Of a DNA stretch of 64,000 bases, positions 1,407-62,388 are shown one piece after another. Under the pieces are notes generated by a model, which had not been told where the DNA came from, did not search any database, and was given only the letters and a program-made list of their open reading frames with translations. The DNA is taken from the NCBI RefSeq assembly GCF_001413955.1, contig NZ_LCTZ01000002.1, positions 2,714,501-2,778,500 of the forward strand. The letters are read 5' to 3'. The translations under genes were made by a program, and so were the position numbers. Positions within the stretch are counted from its first letter, which is position 1, and every line of letters begins with the position of its first letter. This stretch comes from Flagellimonas eckloniae. Its GTDB lineage: Bacteria > Bacteroidota > Bacteroidia > Flavobacteriales > Flavobacteriaceae.

Positions 1407-2165
1407 CTAATCCAATTTTCTGACCCAAATATTTCTGTAGCTTACCCTGCTATTGTCTTTATGGTCTTGAAGCATCAAAGGAGCTTTCCCGTGAGCTTCA
1501 TAGTTGGGCCATCCAATATATTCCGTTGGGCCTTCAAGAATAAAGTTATCCTGAATTAAAACCCCATTGTGCAACACGGTAACCGTTGCAGCTTTTTCAA
1601 GGTTTCCTCCTCTGCTGAATTTTGGCGCATGAAAAATAATATCATACGTATTCCATTCCCCTGAAGGTACGGAAGCCATCGCCAGTGGAACAGCCTGCTT
1701 ATAAACGGATCCTACTTGACCATTTACATAGGTTGGGTTGTCGTTGTTATCCAGAACTTGGACTTCGTATCTTCTTTGCAGAAAAATCCCGCTGTTCGCT
1801 CTATGCTGACCTTCCCGTTGTACTTCTGCTGGTGATCTCCATTCAACATGAAGCTGCATACTTCCAAAATTTTCTTTTGTTTGAATATTCCCGGTCTTGT
1901 CCTTAACCGTCATGCTTCCATCATCATTTAAATGCCAGTTTACCGCAGTGCTATCAGTACTGCTAATCCATTTTGTAAAGTCTTTTCCATCAAAAAGAAC
2001 AGTCGCATCACTTGGTGCACTTCCATTTTCCCCTGGTGTAACTTTTGGTGGAACCGGTTCATAATATTCGGTAGCCCCTGGCTTGGTTGGCTCTTTTTCC
2101 TGGCCTAAAGAAATGGTAACAACTAAGGCAAATAACGGTAATAGGATATTCTTGTATTTAGGCAT
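1407..2165 (-). CDS. Secreted DUF1080 protein (3-keto-glycoside hydrolase/hydratase type)
   Basis: A 252-residue protein with a signal peptide at residues 1-21 (hydrophobic core, cleavage near SLGQ) and a DUF1080 beta-sandwich from about residue 54 (LFDGKDFTKW at 57-66) to the C-terminus (NIWVRKLD). The fold is concanavalin-like. Characterised members act on 3-keto-glucosides by hydrolysis or 1,2-dehydration/hydration. The signal peptide places it in the periplasm or envelope. It is the last gene of TIM-barrel - DUF1080 - DUF1080 and begins 1 bp after the stop of its paralogue, so the two are surely co-transcribed. They share the domain but little else, which suggests divided roles (different substrate or different step). 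The exact reaction is inferred. Confidence 0.88.
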   Translation of the reverse strand: MPKYKNILLPLFALVVTISLGQEKEPTKPGATEYYEPVPPKVTPGENGSAPSDATVLFDGKDFTKWISSTDSTAVNWHLNDDGSMTVKDKTGNIQTKENFGSMQLHVEWRSPAEVQREGQHRANSGIFLQRRYEVQVLDNNDNPTYVNGQVGSVYKQAVPLAMASVPSGEWNTYDIIFHAPKFSRGGNLEKAATVTVLHNGVLIQDNFILEGPTEYIGWPNYEAHGKAPLMLQDHKDNSRVSYRNIWVRKLD

Positions 2166-2166
2166 A

Positions 2167-2922
2167 TTACAGTTCCTTTATTTTTATATTTCTATAACCA
2201 ATTACAATGGGCTCTCCATGGTCTTGTAATGCAATTTTCCCTGTTTGTGATTTCCCAAAGGCCTCCCAAGTGGCAAATTTGGATTTGGATACCATAGCAT
2301 CCCAAGCTTCTCCATTTACGGGAAATTCGGTAATCAGAATATCATTTAAAACCACACTGCCCTTATTAGTTTTATGGTTTATAGAAATAGTATAGTGGTT
2401 CCACTCTCCAACCGGTTTTACCACATTTTTAGTTGGTGATACCATATCATACAAAGCTCCTGCTTGATGATTGGTCCCGTTCTTTGCATCTGGATGATCT
2501 ATATTATCCAGCACTTGAATCTCAGGACCCGTGGTGTAGGGTTCTGGGTATTTTTCATCTTCAACAACCCCCCACATAATACCGCTATTTGCTCCACTAT
2601 TTACCATCCACTCCACGGAAAGCACAAAATTGGTGTATTCCTTGTCTGTTATGATATTGAAACGACTCCCATCTTTTCGTGCTTCGGAAGTTTTGTTTAA
2701 CAGCATAGCTCCATCTTGCAGGCTCCATGCTTCTTCAATGTCCCTTCCGGAATACACATGCCATCCATCCCAAGATGATCCATCAAACAAAACAGTCCAT
2801 TCAGATTCTTCCTGTTCTATTTGTATTTCTGCTTCTTGCTCAACTTCTTTGGAATCTTCTTTTGGCTTTTCCTTACATGCAAAAACGACCAATACCAATG
2901 CGAACACAACTATTTTCTTCAT
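2167..2922 (-). CDS. DUF1080 lipoprotein (3-keto-glycoside hydrolase/hydratase type)
   Basis: A 251-residue lipoprotein: the lipobox ends at Cys16 (VFAC), followed by an acidic linker rich in Glu (residues 17-40) that probably lifts the domain off the membrane. The DUF1080 domain starts with VLFDGSSWDGW near 43-53 and ends with IGYRNIKIKEL. The motif NSGIMWGV near the first third is typical of the family. The ATG overlaps the stop of the upstream TIM-barrel gene (ATGA, 2919-2922), and the downstream paralogue follows after 1 bp. Acidic residues just after the lipid Cys suit surface export in Bacteroidota, but the leader here is KEKPKED, so surface display is not certain. Acts with the neighbouring sugar genes, by inference. 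Confidence 0.88.
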   Translation of the reverse strand: MKKIVVFALVLVVFACKEKPKEDSKEVEQEAEIQIEQEESEWTVLFDGSSWDGWHVYSGRDIEEAWSLQDGAMLLNKTSEARKDGSRFNIITDKEYTNFVLSVEWMVNSGANSGIMWGVVEDEKYPEPYTTGPEIQVLDNIDHPDAKNGTNHQAGALYDMVSPTKNVVKPVGEWNHYTISINHKTNKGSVVLNDILITEFPVNGEAWDAMVSKSKFATWEAFGKSQTGKIALQDHGEPIVIGYRNIKIKEL

Positions 2923-3971
2923 AATCCCAGAATTTTTTTAAGTTTTTCAGTGTCTGTATTCCCTCCGGCAAAATCATCAAAAGTCTTTGTTGTAGCTTCT
3001 ATAATATGATCGGCAATAAATTTTGCTCCTTCTCGCGCTCCTTGCTCCGGACTTTTAATACAACATTCCCATTCCATAACAGCCCAAACATCACAACCAT
3101 ATTGTGTTAACTTGGAAAAAATGGTTTTGAAATCAATCTGGCCATCTCCTAAAGAACGGTATCTTCCAGCTCTATCTCCCCAATCATTGTATCCGCCAAA
3201 TGCTCCCTTCTTTCCCGTAGGATTGAACTCGGAATCTTTAACATGAAATGATTTTATAAACTCATGATAATGATCAATGTAAGCGATATAATCCAACTGC
3301 TGCAATACAAAGTGACTTGGGTCGTACAAAATATTGACCCGCTTATGATTCCCTGTCGCTTCTAAAAATCGTTCAAACGTATCGCCATCATGCAAATCCT
3401 CTCCCGGATGAATTTCATAACAAACATCCACACCTTCTTCATCAAAATGGTTTAAGATAGGCATCCACCGTTTTGCCAACTCTTCAAAACCCATTTCCAC
3501 CAATCCAGGAGGTCTCTGTGGCCAGGGATGTGCGGTATGCCAAAGCAATGATCCGGAAAATGTAGCGTGCGCATTTATTCCCAGCCTTCGGCTTGCCGTA
3601 GCTGCTTTTTTTACCGTTTCAACTGCCCATTCTGTTCGTGCTTTTGGATTATTTCTCACGGATTCAGGCGCAAAACCATCGAACATTATATCATAAGCTG
3701 GGTGAACTGCCACCAGTTGACCTTGCAAGTGCGTGGACAGCTCGGTGATTTCCAAACCATACGAATTGATTTTCCCCTTTAGCTCATCGCAATAGTCCTG
3801 ACTTTCTGCAGCCTTATCCAAATCTATTAGAAAAGATTCCCAGGTTGGTATTTGAATTCCTTTATACCCCAAACCCGAGGCCCATTTACATAAACCATCC
3901 AAAGAATTAAAAGGTGGTTGGCTATCTACAAATTGGGCAAGAAATACGGCAGGTCCTTTAATTGTTTTCAT
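2919..3971 (-). CDS. Sugar phosphate isomerase/epimerase-like TIM barrel, cytoplasmic
   Basis: A 350-residue xylose-isomerase-like TIM barrel (AP_endonuc_2 family) without a signal peptide. The four expected metal ligands are visible: Glu186 (YEIHPG), Asp217 (LYDPSH), His243 (FHVKD) and Glu300 or Glu302 (MEWE). Relatives isomerise or epimerise keto sugars, and some cleave or eliminate 3-keto-glycosides. It heads a three-gene unit with two exported DUF1080 proteins and overlaps the next gene by 4 bp. This suggests it handles the imported product of that chemistry. It is transcribed away from the ASCH gene, with 123 bp of shared upstream DNA. Substrate unknown. Confidence 0.88.
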   Translation of the reverse strand: MKTIKGPAVFLAQFVDSQPPFNSLDGLCKWASGLGYKGIQIPTWESFLIDLDKAAESQDYCDELKGKINSYGLEITELSTHLQGQLVAVHPAYDIMFDGFAPESVRNNPKARTEWAVETVKKAATASRRLGINAHATFSGSLLWHTAHPWPQRPPGLVEMGFEELAKRWMPILNHFDEEGVDVCYEIHPGEDLHDGDTFERFLEATGNHKRVNILYDPSHFVLQQLDYIAYIDHYHEFIKSFHVKDSEFNPTGKKGAFGGYNDWGDRAGRYRSLGDGQIDFKTIFSKLTQYGCDVWAVMEWECCIKSPEQGAREGAKFIADHIIEATTKTFDDFAGGNTDTEKLKKILGL

Positions 3972-4094
3972 CTAATTTGCTTTTATGCGATGTTTTGGAT
4001 TAATTTTTTAGAATATTCGGTTATATTTAGTCCTAATATTTTCTTTTTCTTGGAAAGAGAAAAGTACTAAAAAAACCGAAAACTAATACCATAC

Positions 4095-4559
4095 ATGGAA
4101 AATAGTTCTGCTCGAAATCTCTGGGGTGATTTTTTGGATGCACATTTGGAATTTGCTTCAGAAGACGCTCCAAAAGTAATTCGCTTCTGTGATAATGAAA
4201 AGGACGCAAATATCTGTGCAGATTTAGTTCGCAAAGATGTTAAACGTGCTACGTCCCATTCATTACTGGGACTGCAACTGCGGAAAGAGAAGCTTCCAAA
4301 AATAGGAGATTTTGCCGTTGTTACGGATTGGTCTGGAAATGCCAAGTGTATTATCCGAACTACCAGTGTAAGATTGGTTCCCTATTTTGCGGTGAATTCG
4401 GATCATGCACGATTGGAAGGTGAAGGTGACAAAAGCTTAGAGCATTGGCAAAAAACCCACTGGGATTATTATACCCGAGAACTCTCTCAGTTTGATAGAA
4501 AACCAAGGGAGAGTATGATAGTAGTCTTTGAAAATTTTGAAAAACTGTTTGAAAAATAA
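4095..4559 (+). CDS. ASCH domain-containing protein
   Basis: A 154-residue soluble protein of the ASCH (PUA-like beta-barrel) family. Recognisable parts are the early WGDFLDAHLE segment, the LRKEKLPKIGDFAVVTDW strand-turn with the family's GD-V pattern, and the C-terminal WDYYTRELSQFDRKP. ASCH proteins bind RNA or modified nucleosides, and some are amidohydrolases of N4-acetylcytidine; I cannot assign the activity here. The gene stands alone, divergent from the TIM-barrel gene, and ends at a strong bidirectional hairpin. Its unrelated function suggests it is an unconnected neighbour of the sugar island. Confidence 0.85.
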   Translation: MENSSARNLWGDFLDAHLEFASEDAPKVIRFCDNEKDANICADLVRKDVKRATSHSLLGLQLRKEKLPKIGDFAVVTDWSGNAKCIIRTTSVRLVPYFAVNSDHARLEGEGDKSLEHWQKTHWDYYTRELSQFDRKPRESMIVVFENFEKLFEK

Positions 4560-4561
4560 AA

Positions 4562-4590
4562 TGGCCGCAAAAGCGGCCACTTTGTTTTTA
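4562..4590. terminator. Bidirectional rho-independent terminator
   Basis: The 7-bp arms TGGCCGC (4562-4568) and GCGGCCA (4573-4579) close an AAAA loop. They are followed on the plus side by CTTTGTTTTTA and on the minus side by ATTTTATTTTT. It therefore serves both the ASCH gene (plus) and the convergent oxidoreductase gene (minus). Confidence 0.88.
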
Positions 4591-4608
4591 TAGTGTATAC
4601 GCAAAGTA

Positions 4609-5745
4609 TTAGTCCATATCCACCCAAACATTTCCTTGCTTGTGCGAAGCCACGGTGCTTTCAATAAAATTCAATCCCCGCACTCCATCTAACATCGTTG
4701 GAAACTCACCATCATTGTATTTTTCACCTCGAATTGCCCGGGCAGCTCCTAAATATATATTGGCCATGGCATCAAAAATTCCTTCTGGATGTCCTGGTGG
4801 CAGTTTGGTCCCATCCAAAGATAATTCCGAGTTGTATGCATGACCTGGTTTGTATATTTGAACAGGTTCCGTATCGCTCATTTTGTACAGGAAGTTTGGT
4901 TTTTCCTGTTCCCATCTAAAAGCTCCTTTTTCGCCATAAATAGCTATTGCCAAACCATTTTCTTCACCAGTGGCCACTTGACTGCCACGAATAACACCTT
5001 TTACATGTTTATCCATTCGGATGAGAACAGTTCCATCCACATCCATTTGATTATCATCGTACAAATAATTAAAATCACACAACAATGATTTTATCTTTAA
5101 TCCAGTGGTAAATTCAATCATGTTGAACGCATGAACCCCGATATCTCCCATGCACGAACTTATTCCTGCTTTTTTAGGATCTAAGCGCCAAACAGAAGAA
5201 CGTTTTTCCTTGTCATGGATAATAGTATTTATCCACCCTTGATAGTACCTTGCATCCACCTTATGGATTTTTCCCAAAGCTCCCGCTTTGATCATTTCCC
5301 GCATTTGGCGTACCATAGGGTACCCCGTATAGGTATGGGTAACGGCAAATACTGTTCCTGCTTTTTCCAAAGTATCTTGAAGAATCTTGGCTTCTTCATA
5401 CGTTGTGGTCATCGGTTTTTCACAAATGACATGGAACCCGTTTTCCAACAATTTTTTTGCCATTGGAAAGTGAAGGAAATTAGGTGTTAATATGGAACAG
5501 ACTTGAATACGTTCGTCCTCAGGAAGTTTTAATTCCTCTTCTACCAAAGTTTCAAAATCTTTATAAATACGATTGGTGGGAACGTCAATTTCCTTTGCAA
5601 AATTTATACTTTGATCCAAATCTGGGTTAAAGACCGCACCAACAATCTCATAATTATCGTTAATAAACGAGGCTACTCTATGAAGTACTCCAATAAGGGA
5701 ATCTCCCCCTCCTCCTAGAATTCCGAGTCTTATTTTTTTAGGCAT
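4609..5745 (-). CDS. Gfo/Idh/MocA family NAD(P)-dependent oxidoreductase, cytoplasmic
   Basis: A 378-residue oxidoreductase with a Rossmann motif GILGGGGDS at residues 8-16 and the catalytic-lysine motif CEKP at 108-111. The typical C-terminal alpha/beta domain contains CMGDIGVHAFN, whose Asp and His are the usual sugar-contacting residues. No signal peptide, so it works in the cytoplasm. Family members oxidise or reduce hydroxyls of sugars, inositols and glycosides using NAD(P). It is the last gene of a five-gene minus-strand unit (TIM barrel, DinB, two MFS carriers, this gene), starting 15 bp after the MFS stop and ending at the bidirectional terminator. A role in forming or reducing 3-keto sugars is inferred from context. 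Confidence 0.92.
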   Translation of the reverse strand: MPKKIRLGILGGGGDSLIGVLHRVASFINDNYEIVGAVFNPDLDQSINFAKEIDVPTNRIYKDFETLVEEELKLPEDERIQVCSILTPNFLHFPMAKKLLENGFHVICEKPMTTTYEEAKILQDTLEKAGTVFAVTHTYTGYPMVRQMREMIKAGALGKIHKVDARYYQGWINTIIHDKEKRSSVWRLDPKKAGISSCMGDIGVHAFNMIEFTTGLKIKSLLCDFNYLYDDNQMDVDGTVLIRMDKHVKGVIRGSQVATGEENGLAIAIYGEKGAFRWEQEKPNFLYKMSDTEPVQIYKPGHAYNSELSLDGTKLPPGHPEGIFDAMANIYLGAARAIRGEKYNDGEFPTMLDGVRGLNFIESTVASHKQGNVWVDMD

Positions 5746-5760
5746 TATTCTTTTTTATTT

Positions 5761-6981
5761 TTAGTGTTCTTGTTTTAATCTTTTTTCCTCCAGCTTATTT
5801 CTCATCAGGAACAAAATTCCAAAAAGGACAATCAATATTACAGGAAGCCACATAATATTTCCCAATGTAGCTTGACCAGCTACTAGGTCTGCCGCTTCTG
5901 CAGAAACTCCGGAATCCAAGGCATTGGTGCGTTCTTCATCCAGCATTTGACCAATTTTTGGAAGTGAAATCCCTGTAATCAACATTCCAAACCCGCCTAT
6001 GATTGACATTCCCAATGCTCCAGTTTTATGACTGTACTCACTTATAAATCCAATCATAGTAGGCCAAAAATACATAACTCCACATGAGAATAAAATAGCT
6101 GCAACATATACCATTGGACCTGTGGCACTTGACAATAAATAAAGTGCAAGAGAAGCAATTATTGCAGACCCAAACAAAACTCCAACTGGATTCAATTTAT
6201 GAATAATCGGTCCCGCAAAATACCTTCCAACCGCCATCAATCCAGTAACTATTGCCAAAATAATAAGTGGTGGGGCTCCAGCTTGACCCAACAATCTTTC
6301 AATAAACTGACCTGTTCCAAGTTCTGTAGTGGCCGTTAAACCCATACATACAAGCATAAATATAAATAATGGTGTGAACATTGATTTGATATTCATCTTT
6401 ATGTCTGATTCTATATTCTCTGCTTTTGGGAATTTTTGCCCAAGTATTAAATAGCCATAAATTAATGTAGGTATGATCATTATAGCTATTTGAATTTGCC
6501 ATGAAAGTCCGGCATTTCCCATAAACTCACCAAGTAGAGCTCCAATAACTATCCCTCCCGGGAACCAAACATGAAACTTATTTAGCATAGTGGTTCTGTT
6601 CTTTGTGTACATATCCGCAATCAAAGGATTACATGCAGCTTCCACTGCACCATTGGCAAGGCCAATTAAGAAGGTTGATACAAGTAACGGAACAAAGCTT
6701 TTAGCAATAATTGTTAGAATCAATCCTAAGAGGTGACAAATAAATGCGACCCATAAGATTGGTTTAGGTCCGATTTTAGGGTAGATAAGACCCCCTATAA
6801 TCATGGACACTGGAAATCCATAAAATGCCATTGAATTCATCCATCCAAGTTGGGTGTCATTGAATCCAAATTCAACATTTAATTCTCCCATAATTCCAGC
6901 CCTTAAAGCAAAGGTCATTGCCGTAACTATCAGCGATATGCATGAGGCAATAAATAATCGATTCTTGTTTATATTTTCCAT
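5761..6981 (-). CDS. MFS transporter, probable sugar permease
   Basis: A 406-residue polytopic protein with about 12 hydrophobic segments. The N-half carries GLANGAVEAACNPL and LNKFHVWFPGG near residues 108-142. This N-x-E-A-x-x-N-P plus LN-x-x-H arrangement resembles the FHS/FucP branch of the major facilitator superfamily, which imports sugars with protons. It lies 22 bp downstream of another MFS gene and 15 bp upstream of the Gfo/Idh/MocA gene. The most likely cargo is a sugar or glycoside released by the exported enzymes of this island. Substrate not determinable from sequence. Confidence 0.87.
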   Translation of the reverse strand: MENINKNRLFIASCISLIVTAMTFALRAGIMGELNVEFGFNDTQLGWMNSMAFYGFPVSMIIGGLIYPKIGPKPILWVAFICHLLGLILTIIAKSFVPLLVSTFLIGLANGAVEAACNPLIADMYTKNRTTMLNKFHVWFPGGIVIGALLGEFMGNAGLSWQIQIAIMIIPTLIYGYLILGQKFPKAENIESDIKMNIKSMFTPLFIFMLVCMGLTATTELGTGQFIERLLGQAGAPPLIILAIVTGLMAVGRYFAGPIIHKLNPVGVLFGSAIIASLALYLLSSATGPMVYVAAILFSCGVMYFWPTMIGFISEYSHKTGALGMSIIGGFGMLITGISLPKIGQMLDEERTNALDSGVSAEAADLVAGQATLGNIMWLPVILIVLFGILFLMRNKLEEKRLKQEH

Positions 6982-7003
6982 GTTTACTAAATATATTGGT
7001 TGT

Positions 7004-8233
7004 TTAAGATTTATAAGTTACCTGTTCTTTTTTAAATAGCAAGGTGAACAACAGTAATACCACAAAAGCAAATATGGCTGGAATAATCCAAACATTTTCC
7101 CAACTGTGCCTATTTTCAGAAATTAAATACATGTCGGTAATCTTCCCTGCAACCCAAAAGCCTATCAACATTCCTACTCCATAGGTTGCTAGGGTAATAA
7201 GACCTTGGGCAGCGCTTTTGTATTTCTCACCTGCTTTGGAATCTGTGTAAATCTGACCGGATACAAAGAAAAAATCATAACATATCCCATGCAAAGCTAT
7301 TCCAATTAGTAACATAAAGGCCATTTCACCAGCATTGCCATATGAAAATAATAAGTATCGGATAGTCCATGCCAGCATTCCCAACATGATTGTTTTTTTG
7401 AATCCAAATTTTTTGAAAAAATATGGAAGCAACAACATAAAAAGTATTTCCGATGCCTGCCCAATGGTCATCTTTCCGGTTGGGTTGTCCATCCCAATTT
7501 CTGAAAGAAATGGATTCGCATTTTGGTAATAAAATGCCAGGGGTATGCATATGAGTATTGAGGCAAGAAAGAAGACGAGAAAGTTTTTATCCTTTAAAAG
7601 CTTTAGTGCATCCAATCCCAATAAACTTGAAACGTTGACCTTTTCATTTTTCAATATTTTTGGAGGGGTCCTTGGAAGTATAAAGCTAAAAAGTCCCAGA
7701 ATTGCAGAGGCAACAGCTACCATTAAAAAAGTGTTTTTTAGCATTCCTGCTGACCTTCCTTCTGGAGAATCCCAAAGAAATACATAACTAATTATCAACC
7801 CTGCAGCAATCCAGCCAATTGTTCCAAAGACTCGCACCAAGGAGAACTCCTTAGCGGGATCTTTCATTTGGTTGAATGCAATCGAATTCACCAAAGCCAG
7901 AGTAGGCATGTATAAAATCATATACCCAAAAACATAGGGGTAAAAGGAACCAAAACTATCTGCACCATACATTTGATACATTAAAAATGCCCCGGAAAGG
8001 TGTAAAATACCTAAAATTCGTTCTGCATTAAAATACCTGTCAGCTATCAGTCCTATAATAAACGGGGCAATAATAGCTCCCCATGATTGTGTTGAAAAAG
8101 CCAACGCTATTTCTCCACCTGAGGCATTTAAATTTTCTCCAAGAAAAGTACCAAGTGTAACGAACCACCCACCCCAAATGAAAAATTCAAAAAACATCAT
8201 AAAAGAGAGTTGAAACTTAATTTTTGGACTCAT
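7004..8233 (-). CDS. MFS permease of the nucleoside:H+ symporter (NupG-like) family
   Basis: A 409-residue membrane protein with about 12 hydrophobic segments. The N-terminus (MMFFEFFIWGGWFVTLGTFL) and SWGAIIAPFIIGLIADRYF are characteristic of the NupG/XapB nucleoside permease family. In Bacteroidota such carriers often sit in sugar operons beside Gfo/Idh/MocA and TIM-barrel genes, so the cargo may be a glycoside or sugar derivative rather than a nucleoside. It follows the DinB gene by 9 bp and precedes the second MFS gene by 22 bp. Two unrelated carriers in one operon suggests two substrates, or import plus export. Confidence 0.87.
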   Translation of the reverse strand: MSPKIKFQLSFMMFFEFFIWGGWFVTLGTFLGENLNASGGEIALAFSTQSWGAIIAPFIIGLIADRYFNAERILGILHLSGAFLMYQMYGADSFGSFYPYVFGYMILYMPTLALVNSIAFNQMKDPAKEFSLVRVFGTIGWIAAGLIISYVFLWDSPEGRSAGMLKNTFLMVAVASAILGLFSFILPRTPPKILKNEKVNVSSLLGLDALKLLKDKNFLVFFLASILICIPLAFYYQNANPFLSEIGMDNPTGKMTIGQASEILFMLLLPYFFKKFGFKKTIMLGMLAWTIRYLLFSYGNAGEMAFMLLIGIALHGICYDFFFVSGQIYTDSKAGEKYKSAAQGLITLATYGVGMLIGFWVAGKITDMYLISENRHSWENVWIIPAIFAFVVLLLFTLLFKKEQVTYKS

Positions 8234-8242
8234 AAAGAGAAA

Positions 8243-8686
8243 TTATCTTTTATAGAATATGTAGTCCAACGATTCTGGTTCAATTCCATTCGTTCGAAAA
8301 TCAGCCAAAATCTGTCCTCTATGGTGCGTGGAATGATTTACTACATGAAAAAGTATGTCCTTGAGCTCATTTGCATATGTTCTTCCCTTGCTGTTTTCAT
8401 AATCTATTCTTTTGCTGAAATCATCTGCATTGGTTATGATTTCAAAAGAAGTTCTTTGATTTTCATAATGAATTTCTTCCCAACTTTCAATCAAGTGCAC
8501 TTGCCAAACATCAAACTCTACTGGTTTTTCGACAATTCTTTTGTTCCATCTGTGATGTGCGTTCAAAATATGGCTAAATAAGTTTATGCTCTTTTCCGGA
8601 ACCTTTTCCATAGCAACGCACTGCTCAATGAGCTTTTTATTGCAGTAGAAATTGTAATCGAAGAGTTGGTGTAAAAACCCCTTCAT
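8243..8686 (-). CDS. DinB-like four-helix metalloprotein
   Basis: A 147-residue DinB/YfiT-like protein. The metal-binding histidines of the family are visible as H44/H45 (NAHHRWN) and the C-terminal H118-x-x-x-H122 (NHSTHHRGQ). Members include thiol transferases that conjugate bacillithiol or mycothiol to electrophiles and metal-dependent isomerases or hydrolases. The operon position, 11 bp after the exported TIM-barrel gene and 9 bp before the NupG-like carrier, points to a sugar-pathway or detoxification role. The window also encodes a bacilliredoxin, so bacillithiol may be available. Substrate unknown. Confidence 0.85.
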   Translation of the reverse strand: MKGFLHQLFDYNFYCNKKLIEQCVAMEKVPEKSINLFSHILNAHHRWNKRIVEKPVEFDVWQVHLIESWEEIHYENQRTSFEIITNADDFSKRIDYENSKGRTYANELKDILFHVVNHSTHHRGQILADFRTNGIEPESLDYIFYKR

Positions 8687-8697
8687 AAACTGAATTT

Positions 8698-9708
8698 TTA
8701 TGCAGATTGATTAAGTAATTTTAGCAATAGGCTTTTTGTGGCAAGTATTCCTTCTTCTTCGCTCAGTTCTTTTCCTTCATATTCTACTCCTATATAACCA
8801 GAATAACCTGCATCTTTAACAATTTCCATCATACGAACATAATCCGTGTTGGTCTCGTTACCTAGTTCGTCAAAATCATGCGATTTTGCACTTACTGCTT
8901 TTGCAAAAGGCATTAATTCTGTAATTCCTTTGTAACGATCATATTCCTCAACACAAGCTGTATCAAAGTAAGACCCATCTTCTCTTTTTACACAAAAGTT
9001 ACCAAAATCTGGAAGTGTACCACAGTTGGGCAGATTTACTTTTTCAATCACTTGAACCAGCATAGCAGCATTTGAAGAAAATCCTCCATGATTTTCTACA
9101 ATGACATTAATGTTTTTATCCTGTGCATACTTGGAAAGCTGTGTAAGGCCATCAATAGATGCCGGAGTCCATTCCTCAGCAATCTTGCTCCCCATTAGGT
9201 TCACCCTTACAGAATGACAGCCCAAGGCTTTAGCTGCATCTACCCACTTAAAGTGATTCTCTACAGCGGCTTTTCTTTCTTTTTCATCTGCTGCCGACAA
9301 ATCCCCTTCATGGTCAATCATGATAATCAGATTTTCCAATCCATGCTTTTCACTTTCCGTTTTGGATTTTTCTACAAACCTATCCATAGCTTCTTTAGAA
9401 AAATTAGCGGCTTTAAGCTCATCTTCATATAGCTGGCTTACGTACTCTAAGCCAGAAAACCCCCAACCTTTGGCTTTTTCAGCAAATAGATAAGGATCTA
9501 GTCCTTCTTCTTTGATCATTCTGTGTATGGACCATTGAGCAAGTGAAAGTTTAAACAATGACTCAACATGAGCATCCAATAAAGTATCTTCTTCTACCTC
9601 TGTATCCGCCATCTCCTTCTTCTTGTTTTGTTTACAACCATATATGCCTAATATGGATAATGCAATTCCAGCTTGGGCACTATTTTGAATAAAATTCCTT
9701 CTCTTCAT
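8698..9708 (-). CDS. Exported sugar isomerase/epimerase-like TIM barrel with Tat-type lipoprotein signal
   Basis: A 336-residue xylose-isomerase-like TIM barrel. The N-terminus MKRRNFIQ carries a twin-arginine motif, then a hydrophobic stretch ending IYGC, so Cys25 may be lipidated after Tat export. Metal ligands of the fold are visible: Glu205 (IVENHGG), Asp234 (LPDFGN), His277 (KSHDFD) and Glu309 (GVEYEG). Tat export fits an enzyme that must fold and load metal in the cytoplasm. It is first in the minus-strand unit and diverges from the GMC oxidoreductase gene across 133 bp that hold a perfect palindrome. A lyase or isomerase acting on keto-glycosides in the periplasm is inferred. Confidence 0.88.
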   Translation of the reverse strand: MKRRNFIQNSAQAGIALSILGIYGCKQNKKKEMADTEVEEDTLLDAHVESLFKLSLAQWSIHRMIKEEGLDPYLFAEKAKGWGFSGLEYVSQLYEDELKAANFSKEAMDRFVEKSKTESEKHGLENLIIMIDHEGDLSAADEKERKAAVENHFKWVDAAKALGCHSVRVNLMGSKIAEEWTPASIDGLTQLSKYAQDKNINVIVENHGGFSSNAAMLVQVIEKVNLPNCGTLPDFGNFCVKREDGSYFDTACVEEYDRYKGITELMPFAKAVSAKSHDFDELGNETNTDYVRMMEIVKDAGYSGYIGVEYEGKELSEEEGILATKSLLLKLLNQSA

Positions 9709-9741
9709 AAGGTATTCTTGAAATATTGGATAAAATTAAAA

Positions 9742-9757
9742 ACTATAACGTTATAGT
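9742..9757. promoter_or_regulatory. Perfect 16-bp palindromic operator candidate
   Basis: ACTATAACGTTATAGT is its own reverse complement. It lies midway in the 133-bp gap between the divergent TIM-barrel and GMC genes. A central CG inside AACGTT with A/T flanks is the form typical of LacI-family operators. No LacI gene is in the window, so the regulator would be encoded elsewhere. Confidence 0.6.
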
Positions 9758-9782
9758 GGCAAATTCTCAATAAACATAGGGA

Positions 9783-9821
9783 ATAAATGTAGAAAATTAA
9801 TTTAATAATTAATACATTTAT
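9783..9821. promoter_or_regulatory. Second dyad in the divergent promoter region
   Basis: Nine-base arms ATAAATGTA (9783-9791) and TACATTTAT (9813-9821) are perfect inverted repeats separated by 21 bp. The spacer is itself AT-rich and contains ATTAAT twice. It lies 20 bp before the GMC start codon, where a promoter or operator is expected. AT-richness makes chance symmetry possible. Confidence 0.4.
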
Positions 9822-9841
9822 GAAATAAACAATCCTTTTAA

Positions 9842-11560
9842 ATGAGTAAATTTTATTACAACGAAGAGCAGGAATCATATGATGCTATTGTAGTAGGAAC
9901 AGGCATTAGTGGTGGTTGGGCTGCCAAAGAACTATGCGAAAATGGTCTTAAAACATTGGTTTTGGAACGTGGTCGTATGGTTAATCACATCACAGATTAT
10001 CCTACAGCAAATCTAGACCCTTGGGATTTTCCAAACAATGGTGAGTTGTCTCCAGATAAAATTGCGCGACAAGAAAAACAAAATAGAACAGGATATACAG
10101 TAAAAGCACCACATCATTTTTGGTTTGTGGACGATATAGACCATCCTTATAATGAGACCAAACGTTTTGATTGGATGCGAGGATATCACGTAGGTGGAAG
10201 ATCTTTATTGTGGGGCCGCCATAGTTACCGATGGAGTCCTATGGATTTTGAAGCCAATAAGAAAGACGGAGTTGCTGTAGATTGGCCCGTTCGCTATAAA
10301 GATATTGCTCCATGGTATGATAAGGTTGAAAGTTATATTGGTGTTACTGGTGAATTATTGAATTTACCCCAGCTTCCTGATGGGAAATTTGAGCCCATGA
10401 TGGAGTTGAACTGTGTGGAACAGCATGTTCGTGAACGCGTTGCCGACCATTTTGACGGACGTGTAATAACTGCCGGCAGAGTAGCCCATATAAATAGTGA
10501 TAAAAAGTTTGAAGGTCTGAACCGTAGTTCTTGTAAGTTTAGAAATAGGTGTATAAGAGGATGTCCTTTTGGCGCATATTTCAGTAGTAACTCATCTACC
10601 TTACCAGCTGCTGAACGTACTGGAAACATGACCCTCAGACCAGATTCCATTGTACATGAGGTAATATATGATCCAGATACAAAAAAAGCCACTGGAGTCA
10701 AAGTTATAGATCGGGTTACCAAGGAAGTTTATGAGTTTAAGGCAAAGGTGATTTTCCTATGCGCCTCTGCTGTAGCATCCACTTCAATCTTAATGCAATC
10801 TAAATCGGATAGGTTCGAAAATGGCATGGGCAATGATTCTGGAGAGCTCGGCCACAATATTATGGACCATCACTTTAAAGCAGGAGCCAGAGGTAAAATG
10901 GATGGATTTACCGATAAATACTATAAAGGAAGGAAACCGAACGGGGTATACATTCCCCGTTTCCGCAATTTGGGAGGAAATAGTGACATGAAGGATTTTA
11001 TTCGCGGTTACGGTTACCAAGGTGGGGCAAGCAGGGGCAACTATGAAGATATAGTAGCTGAGGTTTCCCACGGAAAAGAACTTAAAGATGCTATTCTAAA
11101 TACAGGAGGGTGGCAAATGGGTATCAATGGGTTTGGTGAAATTTTGCCATATCACGAAAATAAAATGAGCCTAGATTATGATAAAAAGGACCAATGGGGT
11201 CTGCCAACAGTCACGTTTGATGCCGAGATAAAGGAAAATGAGTTAAACATGCGCAAAGACATGCAGGAGCAGGCTGCTGCCATGCTTGAAAAATCAGGAG
11301 TTCGGGATGTTGAAACTTATGATGAAGAGTATGCATTAGGTCTTGGAATCCATGAAATGGGAACCGCACGAATGGGTAGAGATCCAAAAACTTCTGTTGT
11401 AAATGGAAACAATCAAGTTCATACAGTTAAAAATGTTTACGTTACTGATGGTGCTTTTATGACATCTGCAAGTTGTGTAAATCCATCATTAACTTATATG
11501 GCATTTACTGCAAGAGCTGCCAATCATGCAGTGGAAGAACTTAAAAAAGGAAACATATAA
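9842..11560 (+). CDS. GMC-type FAD oxidoreductase, catalytic subunit (glucoside 3-dehydrogenase/gluconate dehydrogenase-like)
   Basis: A 572-residue flavoprotein. The FAD-binding GTGISGG is at residues 19-25 in a classic beta-alpha-beta. The C-terminal domain holds HEMGTARMG and SCVNPSLT, which carry the His and Asn of the GMC active site. A cysteine cluster C231-x5-C237-x3-C241-P resembles the segment that binds a 3Fe-4S cluster in FAD-dependent glucose and gluconate dehydrogenases; the cluster here is inferred. No signal peptide is seen. Export may therefore occur with the partner subunit, whose gene starts on the last base of this one. Bacterial two-subunit relatives oxidise the 3-hydroxyl of glycosides or sugar alcohols and pass electrons to the respiratory chain. 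Confidence 0.92.
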   Translation: MSKFYYNEEQESYDAIVVGTGISGGWAAKELCENGLKTLVLERGRMVNHITDYPTANLDPWDFPNNGELSPDKIARQEKQNRTGYTVKAPHHFWFVDDIDHPYNETKRFDWMRGYHVGGRSLLWGRHSYRWSPMDFEANKKDGVAVDWPVRYKDIAPWYDKVESYIGVTGELLNLPQLPDGKFEPMMELNCVEQHVRERVADHFDGRVITAGRVAHINSDKKFEGLNRSSCKFRNRCIRGCPFGAYFSSNSSTLPAAERTGNMTLRPDSIVHEVIYDPDTKKATGVKVIDRVTKEVYEFKAKVIFLCASAVASTSILMQSKSDRFENGMGNDSGELGHNIMDHHFKAGARGKMDGFTDKYYKGRKPNGVYIPRFRNLGGNSDMKDFIRGYGYQGGASRGNYEDIVAEVSHGKELKDAILNTGGWQMGINGFGEILPYHENKMSLDYDKKDQWGLPTVTFDAEIKENELNMRKDMQEQAAAMLEKSGVRDVETYDEEYALGLGIHEMGTARMGRDPKTSVVNGNNQVHTVKNVYVTDGAFMTSASCVNPSLTYMAFTARAANHAVEELKKGNI

Positions 11561-12210
11561 TGGAAAGAAGAGTTGCTTTAAAAAATATGGGGCTTGCCTT
11601 TGGCTATACTGTTGCTGCCCCTACCCTTTTAGGGATAGTACAGAGTTGTAATAGCAAGAAAGTATTGGACTGGACTCCAGATTTTTTCACCAAGGAGGAA
11701 GGAACAGTTTTACATACCCTTCTGGACATCTTATTGCCAAAAACTGATACTCCATCCGCCACAGAAGTAAATGTGCATGTTTTCATAGACAAATTTGCCA
11801 ATGAGGTTTTGCCGAAGGAGCATCAAGATTTTCTAAAAATGGGCATGGGCAAATTTGTGGGTAAAGTTTTGGCTTCAGCCGAAAAAGAAACAATGTCAGA
11901 GTTGGATGAAGAAGATTTAGAACCAATTTTTGCCACATATCTCAAGAAAAGAACAGATGAGGTTGAAGAAACTCATGAGAAAGCTTTAGAAGCTTATTTT
12001 AAAGCTGTTGAAGAAACTGGAGGTGCTCAACTGGATGATGAGATTTCCTGTTATAGTTTTGCAAATTCGTTACGTGACATTTCTATCTGGTCCTACAAGA
12101 CCTCTGAATATGTTGGTGAAGAAGTTTTAGCATATCTCCCTGTTCCAGGGGAATACATTGCTTGTGAAGATGAGCAAAAATTAACCCAAGGTAGAGCTTG
12201 GTCGTTGTAA
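11560..12210 (+). CDS. Gluconate 2-dehydrogenase subunit 3-like partner protein
   Basis: A 216-residue protein of the gluconate_2-dh3 family, the small subunit that accompanies GMC dehydrogenases and often carries the export signal for the complex. The N-terminus MERRVALKNMG has paired arginines, then a hydrophobic stretch ending with VQSC near residue 30, consistent with a Tat-type or lipoprotein signal. The conserved family region begins about FFTKEEGTVLHTLLDILLPK and continues in acidic helices. The ATG overlaps the final base of the GMC stop codon (TAATG), indicating translational coupling and a 1:1 complex. It ends just before a strong terminator. Confidence 0.9.
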   Translation: MERRVALKNMGLAFGYTVAAPTLLGIVQSCNSKKVLDWTPDFFTKEEGTVLHTLLDILLPKTDTPSATEVNVHVFIDKFANEVLPKEHQDFLKMGMGKFVGKVLASAEKETMSELDEEDLEPIFATYLKKRTDEVEETHEKALEAYFKAVEETGGAQLDDEISCYSFANSLRDISIWSYKTSEYVGEEVLAYLPVPGEYIACEDEQKLTQGRAWSL

Positions 12211-12230
12211 CTAAAAAACAATTTATAAAA

Positions 12231-12258
12231 AAGCCCGTTTTAAAACGGGCTTTTTTAT
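12231..12258 (+). terminator. Rho-independent terminator of the GMC operon
   Basis: AAGCCCGTTTT pairs with AAAACGGGCTT (12231-12252), and the T-rich tail TTTTATTTTT follows. It lies 20 bp after the subunit-3 stop. Confidence 0.9.
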
Positions 12259-12372: not shown

Positions 12373-14850
12373 CTATGATCCGCACATCAAGCAGTCATCG
12401 TCCGCTTGGCCTTCTTTAGCTCGTGCAATCATTTCTTTCATTTCTTCTGCGCTCATTGGTTGTATATCCACTTCCTGTTGGCTTACTGGAGTAGTATCTA
12501 CCTTAATTGCTTCTGCGGCCTGTGGTGTTGCAGCAACAACTTCTGCTTCTGCAGCCACACTAACAGGAACTTCTTTTTTCTTGGTATTGTCCAAAGTAAA
12601 TTTAATGGCATCTACCGCTGCTTTGGTCCTCAAGTAGTACATTCCTGTTTTAAGTCCACTTTTCCAAGCATAAAAGTGCATAGAGGTCAGCTTGGAATAA
12701 TTTGCATTTTCCATAAACAGGTTCAAGGATTGACTTTGGTCTATGAAGTATCCACGCTGTCTACTCATATCAATGATATCCTTCATGCTAAGCTCCCAAA
12801 CCGTCTTGTACAATTCTCTAATATCTTGTGGAATGGTTTCTATATGCTGAATAGATCCGTTGGCACGCATCAATTCTTGCTTCATATTTTCGTTCCAAAG
12901 ACCTAAATTCACCAAGTCTTCCAAAAGGTGCTTATTTACTACAATAAACTCTCCTGAAAGTACTCTTCGGGTATAAATGTTAGAGGTATACGGTTCAAAG
13001 CACTCATTATTGCCCAGTATTTGAGAAGTGGATGCTGTTGGCATTGGCGCCACCAACAAGGAGTTGCGAACACCATTTTTCTTAACGTCTTTTCTCAATT
13101 TAGCCCAATCCCAACGTCCAGAAAGTTCTTCGTCCTTAATTCCCCAAAGATTATGTTGAAACTCTCCTTGCTCAATTGGAGAGCCTTTGTATGATGAGTA
13201 TGGCCCATCCACTTTTGCTTGCTCCATAGAAGCCGTTACTGCAGCAAAATATAGGGTTTCAAATATCTCTTGATTCAGTTTTTTAGCTTCATCGCTGGTA
13301 AATGGTAAACGCAACATTATAAATGCATCTGCCAAGCCCTGTACTCCAAGACCAATAGGTCTATGACGCATATTGGAATTTTCAGCTTCTTTGACCGGGT
13401 AGTAATTTCTATCGATTACCATATTCAAGTTCTTGGTAACTCTTTTTGTAACCTTGAACAATTCTTTATGGTCAAACTCCCCATTTTTTATAAACATGGG
13501 CAATGCGATAGAAGCCAAATTACATACCGCCACCTCATCTGGTGAGGTATATTCCAAAATCTCCGTACAAAGGTTAGAAGAGCGGATAGTCCCTAAATTC
13601 TTCTGGTTGCTCTTGCGGTTAGCAGCATCCTTGTACAACATATAAGGTGTGCCCGTTTCAATTTGAGATTCTAATATTTTTTCCCAAAGTTCACGTGCTC
13701 GTACCGTTTTACGACCTTTTCCTTCCGCTTCGTATTTTAAGTATAGTTCTTCAAACTCCTCACTGTGATGCGTAAAAAGTCCTGGGCACTCGTTAGGACA
13801 CATTAATGTCCATTCTTCATTTGCTTCTACTCTTTTCATGAAAAGGTCAGAAATCCACATGGCATAGAACAAATCCCGTGCACGCATTTCTTCTTTTCCA
13901 TGATTCTTTTTCAAATCGAGAAACTCATAGATATCCGCATGCCACGGCTCCATATAGATTGCAAAACTTCCTTTACGTTTTCCTCCTCCTTGATCCACAT
14001 ACCTGGCCGTATCATTAAATACTTGAAGCATCGGAACAATTCCGTTAGATGTACCATTGGTACCGGCGATGTAGGATCCCGTAGCTCTTACATTATGGAT
14101 AGAAAGACCGATCCCACCTGCAGATTGCGAAATTTTTGCGGTTTGCTTCAACGTATCGTAAATACCATCTATACTGTCATCTTTCATTGCCAAAAGAAAG
14201 CAAGAGGACATCTGTGGTTTGGGTGTGCCGGAATTGAACAAGGTAGGTGTAGCATGAGTGAAGTACTTTTTTGACATCAACTCATATGTTTCTATGGCTG
14301 AATCCAAATCGTTCAAATGGATTCCTATGGATACACGCATCAACATGTGTTGTGGTCGCTCTGCAATATTTCCGTTCAATTTTAATAGGTATGAACGTTC
14401 CAAAGTTTTAAAACCGAAATAATCGTAGCCAAAATCACGGTTATAAATAATGGTTGAATCCAGTTTTTCTGAATTCTTGGAAATTACCTCATACACCTCA
14501 TCAGATAATAGTGGTGCCTTTTTACCTGTTCTAGGGTTTACGTATTCGTACAAATCCTTCATGGTTTCCGAGAAGGATTTTTTAGTGTTTTTGTGTAGGT
14601 TCGAAACTGAAATACGAGCTGCCAATTTCGCATAATCTGGATGTGTAGTTGTCATGGTAGCGGCAATCTCTGCTGCCAAATTATCCAACTCAGATGTGGT
14701 GACACCATCATAAAGTCCTTCTATGACACGCATAGCAACTTTTAGTGGATCTACCAATCCGTTAAGACCATAACATAATTTTCTTACTCTGGCCGTGATC
14801 TTGTCAAACATGATCAGCTCTTTTCTTCCGTCTCTTTTTACTACATACAT
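12373..14850 (-). CDS. nrdA: Ribonucleoside-diphosphate reductase, large subunit (class I)
   Basis: An 825-residue class I catalytic subunit that reduces ribonucleotides to deoxyribonucleotides. An ATP-cone opens the protein ([10 protein letters not shown], residues 1-90). The catalytic residues N426-C428-E430 lie in SSNLCTEI. The redox pair appears to be C217 (MSSCFLLAM) and C443 (AVCNLAS). The C-terminal shuttle CLMC (C820, C823) is followed by GS. The stretch before it (about 745-800) is a low-complexity Ala/Val/Glu linker. Long segments match the mammalian large subunit almost word for word, for example [11 protein letters not shown] and MCPNECPGL. It lies 137 bp downstream of nrdB on the same strand, with its own terminator. 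Confidence 0.97.
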
Positions 14851-14946
14851 GTGGCTACTATTCTTTTTATATGATACGTTTGTTGGTTATCCCAGCATAC
14901 ATTTAGCGGCGCTGGAAAAATTCCATCGCACTTAGGTTAAGGTCAT

Positions 14947-14971
14947 GAAAACACTAGGGGGTAGTGCTTTC
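14947..14971 (-). promoter_or_regulatory. Hairpin between nrdB and nrdA
   Basis: On the minus strand GAAAGCACTA pairs with TAGTGTTTTC (one wobble pair) around a CCCCC loop. It starts 17 bp after the nrdB stop and is not followed by a clean T run, so it may be an attenuator, RNA-processing or stabilising hairpin rather than a full terminator. Confidence 0.5.
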
Positions 14972-14987
14972 TTAAAGGTTGGTCAAT

Positions 14988-15974
14988 TTAAAAATCAGCG
15001 TCGAAACTGATTTTTTGTGCATCTTCATCTTTTTCTTTGTTGAGAACACCTGCCTTTTGATATTCAGACACGCGCTTTTCAAAGAAATTTGTTTTACCCT
15101 GAAGTGAAATCATATCCATGAAATCAAATGGGTTGGTGGCATTATATACTTTCTCGCATTCTAATTCTACCAATAACCTATCCGTTACAAACTCTAGGTA
15201 CTGTGTCATTAGTTTTGAGTTCATTCCAATAAGACTTGCTGGAAGCGACTCGGTAATAAATTCTCTTTCAATATCAAGAGCGTCAGTCAAAATCGCAGTA
15301 ATCCGCTCTTTTGGCACTTTGTTGATCAAGTGTTTGTTATGTAAATGAACCGCATAGTCACAGTGCATTCCTTCATCTCTAGAAATTAACTCGTTGGAAA
15401 ATGTAAGTCCTGGCATTAGCCCCCTTTTCTTTAACCAGAAAATGGAGCAGAAGGCACCTGAAAAGAAAATTCCCTCAACAGCGGCAAATGCAATTAATCT
15501 TTCCGCAAAACTTGGAGATTCAATCCAGTTTAAGGCCCAATCTGCCTTCTTTTTTATTGCAGGAAAGTTTTCTATCGCCTTGAAAAGGATGTTTTTTTCC
15601 TTTTCATCTTTAACGTAAGTATCAATAAGCAAAGAATAGGTTTCTGAATGGATGTTCTCCATCATAATCTGAAATCCGTAGAAAAACTTTGCTTCCGCGT
15701 ATTGAACTTCACTTACAAAATTCTCTGCCAAATTCTCGTTTACAATACCATCAGATGCAGCAAAAAAAGCGAGTATGTGTTTTATAAAATAACGCTCATC
15801 GTCATTTAATTTATTGTTCCAGTCCGTCAAATCCTCATGAAGATCTATTTCTTCTGCAGTCCAAAAACAAGCTTCACATTTCTTGTACCATTCCCAAAGA
15901 TCATGATGTTTAATGGGAAAAATCACAAATCTATCTTCGTTTTCTTGTAATATAGGTTCTACAGTTGCTGACAT
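14988..15974 (-). CDS. nrdB: Ribonucleoside-diphosphate reductase, small (radical) subunit
   Basis: A 328-residue class I radical subunit. The dimetal ligands can be placed: Asp44, Glu106, His109 (MENIHSETY), Glu167 (VEGIFFSG), Glu201 and His204 (SRDEGMHCD). The radical tyrosine is Tyr113, four residues after His109. The C-terminal tail ISFDADF is the peptide that docks into the large subunit. The protein reads like eukaryotic R2: [13 protein letters not shown] and [20 protein letters not shown] are nearly identical to the mammalian sequence. There is no N-terminal ATP-cone. A 137-bp gap with a hairpin separates it from nrdA, so subunit ratios may be set after transcription. Confidence 0.97.
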
Positions 15975-27322: not shown

Positions 27323-28747
27323 ATGCAAAGAAGAAAGTTTCTAAAAAACACCGCAGCGGCATCTGCCGCTTTTTCCATAGTTCCAAGTCACGTATTGGGA
27401 AAGACCCATATTCCACCAAGTGATACACTTTATGTTGCCGCTTTTGGAGTTGGGGGTCGTGGTAATGGGGTAATTAAGGGGCTTGCTGCCACCGAAAAGG
27501 TAAAGTTTGTGGCTTTTTGTGACGTTGATGACCGCAGGGCTCAGGGAACCTATGAACTTTTCCCGGATGTAAAACGATATAAAGATTTTAGAAAGGTCTA
27601 TAAAAAACACTTAAAAGACATTGATGCTGTTATGGTTGCAACTCCAGACCATACCCATGCTACCATTGCACTTCCTTTTATGCGTGAAAAGAAACATGCT
27701 TATGTTGAGAAACCTTTGACACATAATATTCATGAGGCCAGATTGATGACTAAAGTTGCTGCAGAAAACGGAATCGTTACGCAAATGGGCAACCAAGGAG
27801 CTTCCAGTGATGATAGTAGAATTGCGCGCGAATGGGTTGAATCTGGAATTATAGGAAAAATACATACTATTGATTGTTGGACAAATAGACCCGTGTGGCC
27901 ACAAGGAGTTCCCATTCCTTCAGAAAAACAACAAATTCCCAAGGAGTTGGATTGGGACCTTTGGCTTGGTCCAGCTGCAATGCGTGATTACAATGCGGCA
28001 TATTTGCCATTTAAATGGCGCGGTTGGTGGGATTTTGGAACAGGTGCCTTGGGGGATATGGGATGCCACATTATGGAGACTCCCTTTAGTGTTTTGAATT
28101 TAGGCTATCCAAAAGAAGCTGAAGCCAGTTGCACCACTGTTTGGGTAGATGATTTTGTGGAGGCCGACTACAGTCCTTCATGCCCTCCATCTTCTAAAAT
28201 CCATTTAAAGTTTGAGCATGAACACCACGGAGATATTGCGCTAAATTGGTATGATGGGGGAATAAAGCCAAACCTTCCCGATGAATTGAAAGACAACGAG
28301 ACCATTGGTGATGGTGGTGGCGGAACCATTATGTATGGTGACAAAGGAATCATTGTTACGGACACCTACTCAAGAAATGCACGTTTGTTGCCCTCTGAAA
28401 TGATGGATCTTTACAAATCCCCAGCACCCAAATATCCAAGAGTTCCGGGAAGTATGGATGGACATATCGCTAATTTTGTTGATGGGTGTATGAATGGAGT
28501 CGAAACTTCTTCTGACTTCGCAAAAGCCGGACCACTAACGGAAACCGTTCTTATGGGCAACTTGGCTGTAAAAGCATATCAATACAAAGAATTGAAAGAA
28601 GGCAAAAAAATTGGTGATTGGGCTCCTTATGCCTACCCTGGTCAGCGAAAGTTACTTTGGGATGGTGAGAATATGAGAATCACCAATTACGAAAAGGCAA
28701 ACGAGTGGGTAACACGGGATTATCGAAAAGGTTGGGAATTGACTTAA
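27323..28747 (+). CDS. Tat-exported Gfo/Idh/MocA family oxidoreductase
   Basis: A 474-residue oxidoreductase. The N-terminus MQRRKFLKN is a twin-arginine signal with a small hydrophobic core (about 8-26), so the enzyme folds with its NAD cofactor before export. The Rossmann motif GVGGRG is at 42-47, the motif VEKP at 128-131, and LGDMGCHIMETPF lies in the C-terminal domain. Exported Gfo/Idh/MocA proteins of this length are known in Bacteroidota that modify glycosides by redox-neutral oxidation with a bound cofactor. It lies 15 kb from the DUF1080 island but could work with it. A membrane-protein gene follows 10 bp later. Confidence 0.92.
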   Translation: MQRRKFLKNTAAASAAFSIVPSHVLGKTHIPPSDTLYVAAFGVGGRGNGVIKGLAATEKVKFVAFCDVDDRRAQGTYELFPDVKRYKDFRKVYKKHLKDIDAVMVATPDHTHATIALPFMREKKHAYVEKPLTHNIHEARLMTKVAAENGIVTQMGNQGASSDDSRIAREWVESGIIGKIHTIDCWTNRPVWPQGVPIPSEKQQIPKELDWDLWLGPAAMRDYNAAYLPFKWRGWWDFGTGALGDMGCHIMETPFSVLNLGYPKEAEASCTTVWVDDFVEADYSPSCPPSSKIHLKFEHEHHGDIALNWYDGGIKPNLPDELKDNETIGDGGGGTIMYGDKGIIVTDTYSRNARLLPSEMMDLYKSPAPKYPRVPGSMDGHIANFVDGCMNGVETSSDFAKAGPLTETVLMGNLAVKAYQYKELKEGKKIGDWAPYAYPGQRKLLWDGENMRITNYEKANEWVTRDYRKGWELT

Positions 28748-46179: not shown

Positions 46180-46261
46180 GTTTTAAAAGGTCTTTTGCTA
46201 AAAATAGTAACTAAATGCGACATGCAAGTTTTCTTTATCTCCTTCTTTATATTTTTGAACA

Positions 46262-47275: not shown

Positions 47276-47354
47276 CTTCTTTTCGTCTTAAAAATCATGT
47301 TTTTTAAAGGATTTTAGTTCTGGTTTTTTATCATTTGTAGAAAAGTTATATAGG

Positions 47355-59631: not shown

Positions 59632-59645
59632 TTTTAATATTGAGG

Positions 59646-61578: not shown

Positions 61579-61594
61579 TATGTAGTTTTATACC

Positions 61595-62383: not shown

Positions 62384-62388
62384 AGGTT

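Follow-up and report, generated by a model that had tools for sequence, protein, structure and literature searches.

Among the described relatives of the proteins discussed here, C3 oxidation by GlycDH and elimination by AtOGE and PuCGE have been reported, together with preliminary evidence for hydration by AtHYD and subsequent reduction by Gfo (PMC10628242). In Caulobacter, lactose use depends on lacABC and DUF1080, with cleavage proposed to be periplasmic, and in lacABC and similar loci (Pedobacter, Indibacter and others) a three-part 3-dehydrogenase is accompanied by DUF1080, a reductase, a transporter and a pair of sugar epimerases (PMC9007349). We analysed a 64,000-nucleotide stretch of the Flagellimonas eckloniae genome (contig NZ_LCTZ01000002.1, positions 2,714,501–2,778,500; hereafter the window), in which positions 1407–12210 (hereafter the island) very probably represent a glycoside-utilisation locus of this known oxidation-elimination-hydration-reduction kind, with the individual activities predicted. 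The pathway kind is already known; what is new here is an uncharacterised enzyme, the second TIM barrel of the island (TIM2).

The island resembles the Agrobacterium tumefaciens GlycDH-AtOGE-AtHYD-Gfo operon, as set out in PMC10628242, in its dehydrogenase, hydratase TIM barrel, probable Gfo reductase and a lyase slot, and differs from it in that TIM2 is no orthologue of AtOGE and in possessing DUF1080 proteins, two MFS carriers and three transcription units. The levoglucosan operon lgdA-B1-B2-C (PMC7676230) is alike in proceeding through oxidation, elimination, hydration and reduction with two proteins of the sugar-phosphate-isomerase type, but its first oxidant is NAD-dependent, whereas that of the island is a GMC oxidoreductase. 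A levoglucosan route as such was rejected: GFO scores 94 bits, where the curated model for levoglucosan dehydrogenase requires 650. The island is flanked by yicC (462–1319) and nrdA/nrdB (12373–15974) and contains the following features:

1407–2165, minus strand: DUF1080a, PF06439 protein of a 4qhz-like subfamily, exported (Sec-type N-terminus by eye)
2167–2922, minus strand: DUF1080b, PF06439 protein (149.2 bits), lipoprotein by N-terminal pattern
2919–3971, minus strand: HYD, TIM barrel (PF01261) of the 8ro4 type, predicted cytoplasmic
4095–4559, plus strand: ASCH-domain gene (Pfam), probable passenger
4558–4583, listed on both strands: terminator-like hairpin between ASCH (plus) and GFO (minus)
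4609–5745, minus strand: GFO, GFO_IDH_MocA protein (3v5n, E 3e-86), predicted cytoplasmic
5761–6981, minus strand: MFS carrier (MFS_1), accessory
7004–8233, minus strand: NHS, MFS carrier (Nuc_H_symport, PF03825, 374.6 bits)
8243–8686, minus strand: DinB-family gene (Pfam), probable passenger
8698–9708, minus strand: TIM2 (PF01261), exported TIM-barrel lipoprotein, 4ovx-like (E 2.6e-83)
9842–11560, plus strand: GMC (GMC Pfam domains), putative catalytic subunit of an FAD glycoside 3-dehydrogenase
11560–12210, plus strand: SUB3 (Gluconate_2-dh3, PF13618, 79.2 bits), with a Tat-type RR and lipobox-like N-terminus
12225–12258, minus strand (that of nrdA): terminator-like hairpin between convergent SUB3 (plus) and nrdA (minus)

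All nine genes named in the initial annotation were found as open frames where it had placed them, with the expected domains in Pfam scans, and the open frames bore out its layout of two minus-strand units (TIM2-DinB-NHS-MFS-GFO and HYD-DUF1080b-DUF1080a) and one divergent plus-strand unit (GMC-SUB3); the ASCH and DinB genes interleaved in the block had gone unmentioned. Terminator-like hairpins showed no excess in the region (9 versus a mean of 9.2 in shuffled sequences), and promoter-like sites were no commoner than in shuffles.

The complete oxidative glycoside-cleavage route originally proposed for the island is retained as the best reading because of the match of HYD, the matches of the DUF1080 proteins and the linkage of HYD, Gfo and GMC genes outside the organism's own family. 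HYD aligned over its full length (residues 1–350) to the solved 2-hydroxy-3-keto-glucal hydratase 8ro4 (E 6.8e-163), with the likely metal-site motifs YExH, YDPSH, HVKD and EWEC common to both, and is predicted to be a cytoplasmic enzyme of this activity. Cyclitol (inositol-type) catabolism, in which HYD, GFO and TIM2 would act as inosose dehydratase, inositol dehydrogenase and isomerase, respectively, would account for weak NCBIfam matches of HYD to IolE (61.8 bits) and of GFO to IolG (52.2 bits), but both fall far short of the curated cut-offs of 290 and 355 bits, on which ground an inositol route was rejected. HYD also fits 8ro4 (E 7e-163) far beyond the IolE structure 3cny (only E 6e-10), and such a route has no place for DUF1080 and GMC proteins; we regard it as very improbable.

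Both DUF1080 proteins combine a PF06439 domain with the fold of characterised enzymes; solved 3-keto-glycoside eliminase/hydratases are similar to one of them in sequence and to the other in fold. DUF1080b matched 8v31, 3osd, 8rr2 and 8tda at E 4e-30 to 2e-29, and 66 of 67 sequences, the island copy among them, carry a lipobox-type N-terminus as judged by pattern. The DUF1080 fold and a C-terminal QxH are common to both island proteins and Bacteroides thetaiotaomicron BT2157 (3osd) and the structures 8rr2, 9fbe and 8tda; DUF1080a differs from this group in belonging to a separate subfamily, being 51% identical to 4qhz and 27–28% identical to 3osd, 8rr2, 9fbe and 8tda. The QxH histidine, H235, was invariant in 16/16 sequences, including both from the island, and judging from residue numbers would be equivalent to H275 of the B. 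thetaiotaomicron enzyme. DUF1080a and DUF1080b are each probably 3-keto-glycoside eliminase/hydratases. The genome holds 15 PF06439 stretches, 14 of them above cut-off, with two each in a 490-aa and a 464-aa open frame; other 3-keto-sugar loci are therefore probably present.

Gene linkage was assessed in a near set comprising the best 80 of 493 GMC relatives from the genome_contigs collection (L010–L089; at least 79% identity, with titles nearly all from Flavobacteriaceae), which included an uncultured Allomuricauda with a 99% identical GMC (L010). HYD, GFO, GMC and SUB3 were each found in all 62 near loci with full flanks, followed by TIM2 (61), DUF1080a (60), NHS (60) and DUF1080b (58). With SUB3, HYD and Gfo present in 62/62 of these loci, which were found via GMC, the non-hydrolytic glycoside route looks standard and conserved in a large group of Flavobacteriaceae. 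The ASCH and DinB genes were as well conserved (61/62 and 59/62), so the near set reflects shared ancestry more than function, and near-family synteny was rejected as proof of a pathway.

In a phylum-wide sample of 247 Bacteroidota genomes (HYD and GMC each called at E up to 1e-60), HYD was found in 49, this genome included, and GMC in 79. GMC was present in 49/49 genomes with HYD versus 30/198 without it (Fisher p = 3e-31, uncorrected for shared ancestry), and within the organism's own family alone in 11/11 versus 1/16. All 50 HYD places outside this genome were fetched (L125–L174; ten from its own family; four stretches below 20 kb, one of only 7.3 kb), and they contained GFO (44), NHS (35), DUF1080 (28), GMC (27) and SUB3 (23). 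ASCH and DinB occurred in just 4 and 3 of them, and these genes are probably passengers outside the pathway. In 23 cases no GMC lay in the fetched stretch; among these, the stretches of L159 and L174 were short, and the genomes G108 and G203 carry a GMC gene just outside theirs.

Related arrangements were seen on plasmids of Pseudoalteromonas (L090, Gfo-HYD-MFS-DUF1080-GMC-SUB3-TIM), Croceicoccus (L091, Gfo-HYD-SUB3-GMC) and Ketogulonicigenium (L093, HYD-Gfo-GMC-SUB3-lyase). The lyase of the last matched 8bvk (8BVK, AtOGE) at E 1.5e-94, and the GMC adjoining it was 55.9% identical to that of the island; the A. tumefaciens GlycDH is presumably of the GMC type, with which this layout agrees. Catenovulum (L092) and Runella (L094) carried GMC, subunit 3 and an annotated DUF1080 gene, with no HYD match.

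The island GMC gave the single GMC_oxred_C match of the whole genome. A CX5CX3CP motif, which we take to be an iron-sulfur cluster site as in FAD glucose dehydrogenases, was kept in 147 of 151 GMC open reading frames. Neither RR nor lipobox was seen at the GMC N-terminus; in SUB3, a simple pattern of RR, hydrophobic stretch and lipobox-like Cys was present in 73/80 sequences, the island copy included, and an RR N-terminus in 25/25 sequences of L125–L174. SUB3 matched no solved structure at E ≤ 1. By sequence, the pair is a glucoside-dehydrogenase-type GMC with a Tat-signal partner, and we infer that GMC is the catalytic subunit of an FAD glycoside 3-dehydrogenase, its activity, substrate and C3 regiochemistry being predicted. 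GlycDH was likewise expressed together with a 'TAT-pathway signal protein' (PMC10628242).

Several observations weigh against assigning the island to glycoside cleavage through C3 oxidation. The closest solved relatives of GMC are large subunits of fructose (E 1e-34) and glucose (E 2e-31) dehydrogenases, neither of which attacks glycosides at C3; GMC was absent from the fetched stretch in 23/50 outside HYD loci; the GMC proteins of L090 and L091 are only 31% and 46% identical to that of the island, and GFO shares just 34–41% identity with the corresponding proteins of L090, L091 and L093. Near-family synteny is weak proof given the equal conservation of the ASCH and DinB passengers, the genome counts carry no correction for shared ancestry, and the activities of the island proteins are predictions. 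The first two of these points would also suit a general dehydrogenase of sugars or sugar alcohols that passes electrons to the respiratory chain, with HYD, GFO and DUF1080 serving 3-keto sugars made elsewhere. Such a role is made unlikely by the presence of GMC in 49/49 HYD and 56/56 TIM2 genomes, by the lone GMC_oxred_C match in this genome, and by the finding of GMC in 27/50 outside HYD stretches, where a rough calculation with 5 copies in 4 Mb would lead one to expect about 2.5% per locus.

A second GMC gene was observed in 29/62 full-flank near loci (e.g. L011, 2582–4282, plus strand); in five near loci viewed in detail, it has HYD on one side and ASCH on the other. It is lineage-variable, since only 123 bp separate these genes in the window and the genome has one GMC. 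LacABC presumably consists of a GMC protein, subunit 3 and cytochrome c, the last of which we take to be LacB; in this respect the island differs, as Pfam scans of it revealed no cytochrome c. A small CXXCH cytochrome c (mostly 120–150 aa) stood beside HYD in 19/50 outside loci (e.g. L135, 9051–9434; L137, 10603–10986) and is the likely electron acceptor there. In the F. eckloniae genome, the best match to such a small cytochrome was only one domain within an open frame of 1035 aa.

GFO adjoins HYD on the same strand in 39/50 HYD loci outside this genome; here, the ASCH gene intervenes. The A. tumefaciens operon pairs GlycDH with a Gfo oxidoreductase by which 3-keto-glucose is reduced to glucose (PMC10628242), so that the likelier role of the NAD-type enzyme in the island is that of a reductase and not of another oxidant. 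GFO is probably a cytoplasmic Gfo/Idh/MocA 3-keto-glucose reductase, and the co-occurrence of an FAD-type and an NAD-type oxidant, singled out in the initial annotation as the unusual part, is a normal layout already found in the published operon. A carrier of the NHS type, present in 35 outside loci and in 25 of them no more than 2 kb away from HYD, is probably an importer of a keto-sugar or glycal. The MFS_1 carrier type was found in 4/50 of these loci.

No glycoside hydrolase (GH) family Pfam match was obtained for 54 of the 57 window open reading frames of at least 150 aa plus DinB, shorter frames lying outside the scan; the frames left out (1050–1559, 12406–12906 and 40767–41288, all plus strand) are antisense to other genes. 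Eight GH3 matches occur in the whole genome, so that the absence of hydrolases holds for the window only; the suggestion that none is needed applies to the island but not to the organism.

In the proposed mechanism, GMC/SUB3 would be exported by means of the Tat-type signal of SUB3 and would oxidise a glycoside at C3 on the outer side of the inner membrane, passing electrons to an acceptor encoded elsewhere than in the island. The exported DUF1080 proteins, perhaps with the lipoprotein TIM2, would split the 3-keto-glycoside by β-elimination, and DUF1080 may also hydrate the elimination product, as has been shown for relatives. NHS could then import 2-hydroxy-3-keto-glucal or 3-keto-glucose. 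Going by relatives and by their missing export signals, HYD would add water to the glucal in the cytoplasm, and GFO would use NAD(P)H to turn 3-keto-glucose into glucose. The export signals suggest that cleavage takes place outside the cell and the remaining steps within it, posing the question of which compound passes through the membrane.

The best characterised sequence relatives of TIM2 were DgpC1 (E 6e-13) and the PuCGE chain (E 2e-8), followed by a tagatose epimerase (E 5e-5). TIM2 shares its fold, Glu205 and His207 with the alpha subunits of C-glycoside eliminases (DgpC, PuCGE, CGD); the two residues (β-5 ExH, present in 37/37 sequences) align on the metal Glu and catalytic His143 of the PuCGE chain. 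It appears to differ from these enzymes in having Ser273 for the β-7 His metal ligand (36/36 sequences with a residue at that position), as placed by alignment to DgpC chains and by strand 272–276 of the predicted model; residue 277, close by, is His or Tyr in most sequences. No small beta subunit was recognised in the island, where all genes of at least 147 aa have other Pfam assignments and shorter frames were unscanned. The intact metal ligands originally attributed to both TIM barrels were found in HYD but apparently not in TIM2.

A profile comparison against 18 proteins of the OGE type places TIM2 in another register, likewise without a β-7 His (probability 94.7, 14% identity), and the BLAST match to the OGE-type protein of L090 reached E 0.015. 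TIM2 does not qualify as an AtOGE-type β-eliminase, and no lyase of this type was recognised in the island. TIM2 and a lyase of the AtOGE type were never found together in the 62 full-flank near loci or in the 27 outside HYD loci that contain a GMC. The view that TIM2 strictly replaces AtOGE was rejected, since L193–L195 hold both in one cluster. An RR N-terminus was present in 42/77 near TIM2 sequences and 0/6 from L125–L174, with a lipobox-like Cys in 69/77 near sequences; OGE-type proteins of L125–L174 had RR in 21/21.

TIM2 was present in 56/247 Bacteroidota genomes, with GMC found in 56/56 of these versus 23/191 others, making it an enzyme family without an assigned role that was confined to GMC-bearing genomes of the sample. 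TIM2 lay within 1 kb of GMC in 8/20 fetched TIM2 loci, 12 of the 20 having been chosen for a near GMC. In L186–L191, TIM2 stood beside GMC/SUB3 with no HYD, GFO or DUF1080 recognised within about 20 kb, forming a minimal TIM2-GMC-SUB3 module.

TIM2 is more likely an uncharacterised candidate 3-keto-glycoside lyase than an epimerase. We tentatively propose, at somewhat less than an even chance, that it belongs to an exported family tied to GMC glycoside 3-dehydrogenases of Bacteroidota and constitutes a novel class of 3-keto-glycoside lyase whose metal site is altered, lacking the β-7 His. If so, three cleavage enzymes would act outside the membrane with hydration and reduction inside, and 2-hydroxy-3-keto-glucal could itself be the imported nutrient. 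TIM2 might instead be an epimerase or isomerase turning other 3-keto-hexoses (e.g. keto-galactose) toward reduction to usable hexoses, a conceivable role to which we give rather under half of our belief. Comparison of structures with the TIM2 model did not separate lyase from epimerase; the ranking of DgpC1 and PuCGE above tagatose epimerase, the position of His207 on His143, the proximity to GMC in the selected loci above, and the export of TIM2 like the oxidase but unlike the reductase all argue against an epimerase. The candidate lyase family was not named in the literature searched, and we make no claim that its link with GMC is unpublished.

Elsewhere in the window, two open reading frames (33699–35252, 517 aa; 28758–29429, 223 aa) gave no Pfam hit at E ≤ 0.001. 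More genes connected with sugars lie off the island at 27323–28747, 45085–48497 and 53761–54624; they encode a further Gfo/Idh/MocA protein, a lactonase, an AraC regulator, a dehydrogenase of the GSDH type and a ThuA-domain protein. A haem biosynthesis row comprising hemA, hemC, hemD, hemE, GNAT, DUF6973, hemF, PhzF-like and hemB genes occupies positions 55791–63378.

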